40,103 nucleotides of DNA from Minisyncoccota bacterium. Its GTDB lineage: Bacteria > Patescibacteriota > Minisyncoccia > Phycocordibacterales > Zambryskibacteraceae. The translations under genes and the position numbers were made by a program. Below the pieces are notes generated by a model. The model was not told the DNA's origin, did no database searches, and worked only from the letters and a program-made list of their open reading frames with translations. This document shows positions 26,007-34,435 of the stretch, in pieces; position 1 is the first letter of the stretch, and the number at the start of each line of letters is the position of its first letter. The stretch lies in contig JANWHY010000006.1 of NCBI GenBank assembly GCA_025450175.1, positions 1 through 40,103 on the forward strand. Direction: 5' to 3'.

Positions 26007-26133
26007 CTTGTGCGCCCAGAGGGAATGAACAGCTGGGAAACCCACGGTTTTCCCAAACCTTCCTCCACGGGAGAGAATTCTCCTCTCCCGACCCCACTCC
26101 TGTTCGATTCCCTCTGGGGAAGGCAAAAGCCTT
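26007..26133 (-). repeat. tRNA-3'-linked palindromic element, copy A (at tRNA-Lys)
   Basis: Read on the minus strand, the tRNA-Lys gene is followed by a small spacer hairpin (26120-26133), an inverted copy of the tRNA T-arm and acceptor (26107-26118), an 81-nt core (26027-26107), then a direct copy of the tRNA 3' end (26007-26026, a 20-nt exact repeat of 26131-26150). The outer arms pair over 18 bp with one bulged base. Inside are two hairpins, 26068-26090 (CGGGAGAG/CTCTCCCG) and 26034-26055 (TGGGAAA/TTTCCCA), giving a three-way junction. The core matches copy B at 75 of 81 positions. No coding potential is seen. Confidence 0.85.
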
Positions 26134-26134
26134 G

Positions 26135-26207
26135 TGCGCCCAGAGGGAATCGAACCCCCGACCATCTCCTTAAGAGGGAGCTGCTCTACCGGCTGAGCTA
26201 TGGGCGC
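26135..26207 (-). tRNA. tRNA-Lys(CUU)
   Basis: Acceptor GCGCCCA/TGGGCGC, D-stem GCTC/GAGC, anticodon loop CTCTTAA, T-loop TTCGATT. The 27-43 pair is a G-A mismatch; otherwise canonical. Discriminator A; CCA not encoded. The 3' end is duplicated downstream by the element at 26007-26133. Confidence 0.93.
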
Positions 26208-33235: not shown

Positions 33236-33383
33236 GTAGGCAGAAACTCTAGGACAGAGTTTGATTAAAGGTGGGGAGATGTTCTCTTTTTCCAAAATCG
33301 GCTCCCGACTATGGACGCTGCCCTCGTCCGAAAGAACACCTAAAATAAGTTTAATACAAATTTTGTTTTTACAAATCCCCAGT

Positions 33384-33539
33384 TGTGCGCCGGGAGGGAT
33401 AGAACATCTGGGAAACCCACGGTTTTCCCAATTCTTCCTCCACGGGAGAGGATGTTCCTCTCCCGACCCCACTCCTGTTCGAATCCTTTCCGGCAGTTTG
33501 CAAAAAGCCGAGCTACAAGAGCTCGAACTTTTTTACAAA
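33384..33539 (-). repeat. tRNA-3'-linked palindromic element, copy B (at tRNA-Tyr)
   Basis: Same layout as copy A but with arms from tRNA-Tyr. On the minus strand, tRNA-Tyr is followed by a 43-nt spacer hairpin (33497-33539, with CGAGCT/AGCTCG inside), an inverted near-copy of the tRNA T-arm/acceptor (about 33479-33493), the core (33402-33482), and a direct copy of the tRNA 3' end (33384-33400, a 17-nt exact repeat of 33540-33556). The core hairpin CGGGAGAGG/CCTCTCCCG is one pair longer than in copy A. The outer stem is about 16 bp with an internal loop and two G-T pairs. Confidence 0.85.
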
Positions 33540-33541
33540 TG

Positions 33542-33625
33542 TGCGCCGGGAGGGATTCGAACCCCCGTAGGCCATAGGCCGGCACGTTTACAGCGTGCTA
33601 CGATTGACCACTCCGTCACCGACGC
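33542..33625 (-). tRNA. tRNA-Tyr(GUA)
   Basis: Acceptor GCGTCGG/CCGGCGC with one T-G pair, anticodon loop CTGTAAA on GCACG/CGTGC, long variable arm (CGGCCTATGGCC), T-loop TTCGAAT. Discriminator A, CCA not encoded. Confidence 0.95.
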
Positions 33626-34174: not shown

Positions 34175-34435
34175 ATGTTTTATGTGTATATATTGAAAAA
34201 TAGGAAAGTGGGTAAATTATATATTGGTTACACTAAGGATTTAAGACGGAGGTTAAAAGAGCATAAATATGGAAGAGTGCGTACTACTAGAATATTTGGA
34301 AAGGATGTTGAGTTAATTTATTACGAGGCGTACAAAGATCAACAAGATGCTGAAGACAGAGAAAGGAGTTTTAAAAAATCAGGTTCTGTATATAATGGGC
34401 TTGTTAAGAGAATAAAAAGAAGTAAGGGCGATTAG
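34175..34435 (+). CDS. GIY-YIG nuclease domain protein (UPF0213/YhbQ-like)
   Basis: The 86-residue single-domain protein has YVYILKN for the GIY half, LYIGYT for the YIG half, the catalytic Arg in DLRRRLKEHKYG, and the closing acidic region (AEDRERSFKKSG). Stand-alone members are small DNA nucleases of uncertain role, and the family is common in CPR genomes. It is clearly AT-richer than its neighbours. The stop TAG (34433-34435) lies inside tRNA-Trp, overlapping it by 10 nt. The TTTATGTG start region has no clear Shine-Dalgarno. Confidence 0.88.
   Translation: MFYVYILKNRKVGKLYIGYTKDLRRRLKEHKYGRVRTTRIFGKDVELIYYEAYKDQQDAEDRERSFKKSGSVYNGLVKRIKRSKGD

Follow-up and report, generated by a model that had tools for sequence, protein, structure and literature searches.

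A family of small non-coding elements at the 3' ends of patescibacterial genes, with a core that may fold as triple-helical single-stranded DNA

A small element located behind a tRNA-Lys gene of a Minisyncoccota bacterium belongs to a large family of short non-coding cassettes that occupy gene 3' ends in Patescibacteria (CPR) and whose core would, with a probability of about one half, act as folded single-stranded DNA (ssDNA). The members of this family have a common layout, a core of two hairpins with covarying third strands, arms that follow the adjacent gene and cores that follow the genome, and their occurrence in related species is patchy. The core may act as folded ssDNA and the cassette may be mobile. 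The setting is among the smallest genomes known, the host genome comprising 442 kb (12 contigs, 96% complete), and the window, that is the whole stretch of DNA that was analyzed, has a length of 40,103 nucleotides.

Layout and extent of the family

On the minus strand, positions 26007-26207 of the window read as proposed in the original prediction, with an intact tRNA gene followed by inverted and direct copies of its own end. The tRNA-Lys(ctt) gene (26134..26207) runs without a break into X2, its 3' end from the T-loop on (GTTCGATTCCCTCTGGGCGCACAAG, 26131..26155), which is followed by a spacer (26120..26130) completing the short hairpin AAGGC TTTT GCCTT and by X', an inverted copy of the tRNA T-arm and acceptor 3' strand (CCCCAGAGGGAATCGAAC, 26102..26119). 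In the core, triplex hairpin 1 is made up of a proposed third strand that mirrors the purine strand of the hairpin (AGGAGTGGG, 26093..26101), a GTC loop (26090-26092) and the duplex GGGAGAGGA ... TTCTCTCCC (26069..26089). Triplex hairpin 2 includes the proposed third strand GGAAGG (26058..26063), placed within a conserved GTGGAGGAAGG, and the TGGGAAAACC GTG GGTTTCCCA region with a conserved ACCGTGGG (26034..26055). The sequence GTTC joins the core to X1, a direct repeat of the tRNA 3' end on the downstream side (26007..26030). All these parts lie on the minus strand, where the element proper spans 26007-26130, and the general order runs from the gene body and its end X2, often through a terminator, to the inverted copy X', the core and a further copy of the gene end, X1.

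The 20-nt exact direct repeat (ATTCCCTCTGGGCGCACAAG, at 26007-26026 and 26131-26150) was recovered, and the claimed pairing of the arms over 18 bp with one bulge was reproduced by the predicted fold of the element (MFE -64.5 kcal/mol vs -46.9 +/- 3.9 for shuffled sequences, z -4.6). This arm-closing pairing is one of two possible pairings, and in the family as a whole the other is the stronger. The alternative that had been envisaged for read-through RNA appears in the MFE structure of the joined transcript, in which the inverted arm is placed on the tRNA instead and the freed direct copy (X1) is predicted to bind the 5' acceptor strand of the tRNA. The spacer hairpin is likewise present after tRNA-Lys, but in many other copies a terminator-like hairpin is found. 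Elements are non-coding and about 130-200 bp in size; that of tRNA-Lys contains no integrase, as had been noted, its ~130 nt leaving no room for such a gene.

A second core occurs in the window after tRNA-Tyr(gta) (33541..33625, minus strand as are all parts of this copy) and shows 89% identity to the first across 104 nt (33383-33486). A terminator-like hairpin (33498..33538) separates the gene from X' (GCCGGAAAGGATTCGAAC, 33477..33494), which tracks tRNA-Tyr, and is followed by a core with both hairpins (33406..33476) and by X1 (GTTCTATCCCTCCCGGCGCACA, 33384..33405), so that the arms of this copy fit tRNA-Tyr and not tRNA-Lys. A third copy, located after tRNA-Asp elsewhere in the host genome, has the arms of tRNA-Asp and a compensatory change in hairpin 2, and a truncated copy lies ~490 nt behind tRNA-Gln.

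The covariance model suggested in the original prediction was built from the Lys, Tyr and Asp copies of the host genome and gave matches in 25 of 61 related genomes. It also matched 33 of 380 genomes from across the phylum, among them members of other classes. An independent scan by pattern, covering 84,980 species, found at least 118 loci; among the matches listed, the named records are all Patescibacteria and the rest are bacterial metagenome-assembled genomes. More than 160 distinct relatives are thus known across Patescibacteria. The exact core pattern did not occur in viral contigs (IMG/VR), and Rfam gave no match to the element at the gathering score (window) or at E up to 1 (five loci). 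A limited search of open-licence papers likewise found no published description of an element with this layout, in agreement with the statement that no such family was known.

The same layout also accommodates other cores. A second core class, CGAAAGCCGGAG-hairpin-GAGGCGGGGTCGC-...-GTGACCGA, is likewise located between X' and X1 behind tRNAs (loci L073, L057, L068, L114, L051 and L290, and after tRNA-Lys in genomes G015, G014 and G009, loci L238, L241 and L248), which indicates that the gene-end layout serves unrelated-looking cores; one of these loci, L068, is an array at a single tRNA-Ile with two units of different core class. Seven further cores (L083, L096, L123, L143, L167, L179, L180) lie immediately 5' of an ATG, have a common GCGACTNACTNNNTANTACCACTATG and no clear X2, and may form a distinct subclass directed at another target.

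Arms that follow the gene and cores that follow the genome

The placement of the elements was examined in 121 copies collected by core pattern alone. A position 3' of tRNAs, on the same strand and within 150 nt, was confirmed for 67 of them, which are preceded by 32 kinds of tRNA, and a tRNA on the opposite strand was found upstream of a single core (1/121); many others, however, lie at the ends of protein genes. When the arms were compared with the 13-nt T-stem/acceptor strands of all tRNAs, X1 matched that of the adjacent tRNA best in 57 of 64 cases, as expected if the arms track the neighbouring gene, and X' did so in 31 of 64. Pairing between X' and X2 is strong (54/67 above the 99th percentile of controls) and that between X' and X1 is weak (16/67). 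For 10 of 31 cores the most similar other core belonged to the same genome (permuted mean 1.6, maximum 8), and for 4 of 31 it belonged to a tRNA for the same amino acid (p 0.17); both the arm and the core tests are simple permutations that leave phylogeny aside. Arms that belong to the adjacent gene, together with nearest cores from the same genome, indicate that the core is tied to the genome and the arms to the gene.

The insertion is flanked by a direct repeat of the tRNA 3' end, as in integrative elements of tyrosine recombinases. Copies at tRNAs have X1 identical to X2 across 13/13 nt in 40 of 63 cases, and where X1 differs it never pairs better than X2 with the tRNA body; changes in X1 usually weaken this pairing and look like decay. 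Identity of X1 and X2 extends 0-10 nt past the tRNA end in 60 of 63 copies, which rules out a long target-site duplication as a general rule. An arm copied from the mature CCA-ended tRNA was also rejected, X1 showing no CCA enrichment, and the layout is unchanged in distant classes, whose tRNA genes have an encoded CCA. Some copies have no clear X2 or X1, and in two (L051, L065) the direct repeat extends into the spacer or the core start.

Many cores occur at protein-gene 3' ends with the arms of that gene, and therefore the view of the element as specific to tRNAs is wrong. Targets include rpsI (S9), rpmG (L33) and rplL (L7/L12), names that rest on C-terminal peptides, supplemented by PF00380 in the case of rpsI from 30 genomes; the candidate list holds a few spurious reading frames over tRNA (e.g., L070). 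At these genes X' corresponds to the last codons inverted, and X1 spells the same C-terminus in other codons. When X1 was compared with X2 in 21 elements, 62 synonymous and 22 non-synonymous codon changes were counted, 66 of the 106 base differences fall at third positions, and several serine and arginine codons switch family. The predominance of synonymous differences suggests that both ends have been translated over a long time. That X1 might be the native end displaced by a foreign X2 was considered and is doubtful for rpsI, because X1 often has His where the 26 rpsI ends listed have Gln, Ala or Lys.

Other arrangements were observed at rpsI 3' ends. Two loci, L206 and L209 (the latter being rpsI of the host genome), are long core-less palindromes composed of the last codons, a terminator and the codons inverted, the former a perfect inverted repeat with more than 30 bp in each arm. 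Downstream of the X1 of an rpsI element, at L098, lies an inverted copy of that same X1 (GGAGTAAACGATAA ctgc TTATCGTTTACTCC), which looks like the beginning of another round.

Third-strand covariation in the core

Both core hairpins covary, with 95.2% of cells paired and a covariation score of 0.442 compared with 0.150 for shuffled alignments and at most 0.128 for slid versions, in an alignment that was fitted to the structure of the covariance model. G-U pairs are rare (5 of 728 helix-1 cells). In an anchored alignment comprising 168 cores, each hairpin is accompanied by a third purine strand that covaries with it, giving the triplets G.GC, A.AT, T.AT and T.CG. Upstream of hairpin 1, past the GTC loop, the sequence is a mirror of the hairpin purine strand and reads A.AT, G.GC and T.AT; at position 5 of this hairpin the third-strand letter is equal in 160 of 167 cores, 103 being expected. 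For hairpin 2 it is the strand after GTGNNGGA that covaries, one position showing G.GC in 76 cores, A.AT in 36 and T.CG in 27. In the purine motif, T reads a C-G pair.

Canonical triplets account for 93% (hairpin 1) and 91% (hairpin 2) of cells in register, and out of register for 36-46% in hairpin 1 and 21-48% in hairpin 2, except for 76% at shift -1. At the four variable positions 608 of 672 cells are canonical, a value that exceeds the maximum of 1000 shuffles (419; mean 378), so that the core pattern is not due to chance, in statistics that do not take phylogeny into account. Hairpin 1 of the tRNA-Lys copy has room for nine triplet layers, and a divergent class B core, of which one copy was read fully, has the same mirror design (AAAGGGG-TGGT-GGGGAAA-gta-TTTCCCC).

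As a sequence pattern, the core therefore has the antiparallel third purine strand and the G.GC, A.AT and T.AT triplets of the purine motif. Antiparallel G.GC and A(T).AT triplets define the purine motif of bacterial intrastrand triplexes, which form in bacterial ssDNA, arrest polymerases and have been linked to instability; a related motif of Escherichia coli gave no triplex signal as a duplex or in vivo (Holder et al., 2015; PMC4666352). The same paper, citing Semerad and Maher (1994), reports purine-motif triplexes to be impossible in RNA. The DNA-type triplet code and the scarcity of G-U cells make DNA a likelier acting molecule than RNA, and the core is apparently built to fold as single-stranded triple-helical DNA, as judged from covariation. 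In a limited literature search, evolutionary evidence for a DNA triplex through third-strand covariation seems not to have been reported before.

Mobility, proposed mechanism and relation to known systems

In related genomes of the genus with a syntenic tRNA-Lys(ctt)-tRNA-Leu(tag) pair the two genes are mostly separated by 2-41 nt and the element is absent, and two related genomes carry a different insertion at this place; absence in other species could be due to loss, and this cross-species comparison revealed no insertion or excision event directly. As to the enzymes, neither the host genome (G000) nor G042, which carries 8 copies of the element, has a match to the Y1 transposase typical of IS200/IS605 or REP-type elements (PF01797, Y1_Tnp) or to the reverse transcriptase of group II introns and retroelements (PF00078, RVT_1), the latter showing no visible association with element presence among 61 genomes. 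PF00589 has one match in the host, a Xer-like tyrosine recombinase, and occurs in nearly all genomes searched in visibly similar counts with and without element copies. For lack of association, a reverse transcriptase, a Y1 transposase and an additional integrase were each discarded as agents of movement.

The three small GIY-YIG nuclease genes of the host genome all adjoin tRNA genes (Trp, Gln and one on contig C7; window 34175-34381(+), G000:C10:17490-17711(-) and G000:C7:33213-33416(-), respectively). The gene on C10 is flanked, like a cargo, by tRNA-Gln on one side and on the other by a truncated element with an X' that fits tRNA-Gln, and similar neighbours occur in genomes G004 and G035. 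As a co-occurrence clue these nucleases are uninformative because they are present in 61 of 61 genomes searched.

Two meanings had originally been suggested for the element, a small end-capturing unit and a trailer RNA, of which the first is retained: capture of gene ends as direct and inverted copies agrees with arms that track the gene and a core common to different genes. In the proposed mechanism the core would act as ssDNA (lagging strand, repair or uptake) and would fold into two intrastrand purine-motif triplex hairpins. Insertion of the cassette at a gene end would leave the gene intact, since one copy of the end would remain joined to the body, and its loss would join the body to X1, with the gene again intact, which would explain why X1 retains the same peptide or tRNA strand. 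It is proposed with low confidence that the arms would arise when the end of the target is copied on insertion, e.g., through template switching at a triplex-stalled fork with X' annealing across the junction. Among the candidates for this copying, template switching at a stalled fork ranks first, followed by the action of a recombinase on folded ssDNA and then by an RNA process resembling that of an intron; a single scheme hardly fits both the X1 identical to X2 that is usual in tRNAs and the recoded X1 of protein genes.

An unlikely alternative is a cassette of the integron type driven by Xer, in which X'-core-X1 would be a folded ssDNA site and a tyrosine recombinase would move circles of X2, spacer, X' and core. 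The layout fits a cassette with an imperfect hairpin site, arrays exist (L068), X1/X2 identity ends near the tRNA end, one recombinase is found in nearly all genomes searched, and integron integrases are reported to act on pairs of DNA partners of which one is single-stranded and the other double-stranded (PMC4792948). A site-specific recombinase alone, however, cannot re-tailor arms of 13-20 nt to each target, no crossover motif common to T-loops and protein-gene ends was seen, and the PF00589 counts do not distinguish genomes with copies from those without.

Swapping of ends at the RNA level, in the manner of an intron, is unlikely. X' would serve as an internal guide, pairing ~8 nt on each side of the junction (body end plus X2) and then with X1, and the core RNA would help to join the body to X1, so that spliced and unspliced forms would give the same product. 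This agrees with the complementarity of X' across the junction in both tRNA and protein genes, with an X1 that is in frame and re-encodes the same peptide, with the joined-transcript MFE structure, in which the tRNA 5' strand pairs with X1 and X' with X2, and with an element orientation that follows the gene, but the third-strand code is that of the DNA purine motif, helix 1 is poor in G-U pairs and many copies have terminators between gene and core. The core is also far smaller than known self-splicing introns.

It is also improbable that the elements are an artefact of replication, whereby a polymerase-stalling triplex repeat like BoxC would passively gather nearby copies by template switching, its mobility unselected. 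Triplex motifs of bacteria have been associated with instability and with stalled replication (PMC4666352), and a core-less perfect gene-end palindrome (L206) and truncated copies (L209, L010) exist; against this, the layout is consistent, orientation is fixed and placement at gene ends is kept in many species, X1 is recoded and the core is common to different genes of one genome. A cis-acting trailer RNA controlling tRNA folding or the processing of the adjacent tRNA or mRNA is very unlikely, for although the same-strand position 3' of genes, the covarying hairpins and the antisense arm would suit it, unrelated genes including protein genes are served, the same gene in close relatives has no element, terminators intervene, Rfam gives no match, G-U pairs are rare and the third strands follow a triplet code that is reported to be impossible in RNA (PMC4666352).

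For the ssDNA cassette, a yet bolder reading is put forward tentatively, namely that it constitutes an undescribed class of mobile unit in CPR, with two triple-helical hairpins, arms re-tailored for each gene, and a gene that works both with the cassette and after its loss. If true, it would unite two features that are not known to occur together, an intrastrand DNA triplex that is clearly constrained in evolution and a mobile unit copying the end of its target rather than recognizing a fixed site, and the recoded gene ends would offer a direct test of the natural use of inserted and excised states.

Among the closest known systems is the TM_ECO/BoxC motif, which is also a G-rich, multi-copy purine-motif triplex of one strand with a 3-nt loop between two purine strands and is tied to local variability. 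Its consensus, CCCTCNCCC-N3-6-GGGNGAGGG-N3-GGGNGAGGG with the pyrimidine strand first, is not that of the CPR core, where the order is third strand, purine strand and pyrimidine strand; TM_ECO belongs to class II whereas the CPR core has two hairpins, the first with its third strand 5' (class I). TM_ECO is intergenic, without strand bias and without reported flanking copies of gene ends, in contrast to the CPR elements, which have such copies and lie at gene ends in one orientation (PMC4666352). Integron cassettes with their attC sites are likewise small units with an imperfect folded ssDNA site and possible arrays, but the CPR arms belong to the neighbouring gene rather than being fixed core sites, and the elements lie where tRNA and ribosomal-protein genes end. 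Integrative elements at the 3' ends of tRNAs and other genes also keep the gene whole through a duplicated end, identity stopping near the tRNA end; the CPR element differs in having no integrase, an extra inverted copy and one core type for many targets. Finally, MITEs and REP/BIME are similarly short, dispersed, palindromic and non-coding and would need enzymes acting in trans, but in the CPR family the terminal arms vary with the target, in a host genome with no match to a REP-type Y1 transposase.
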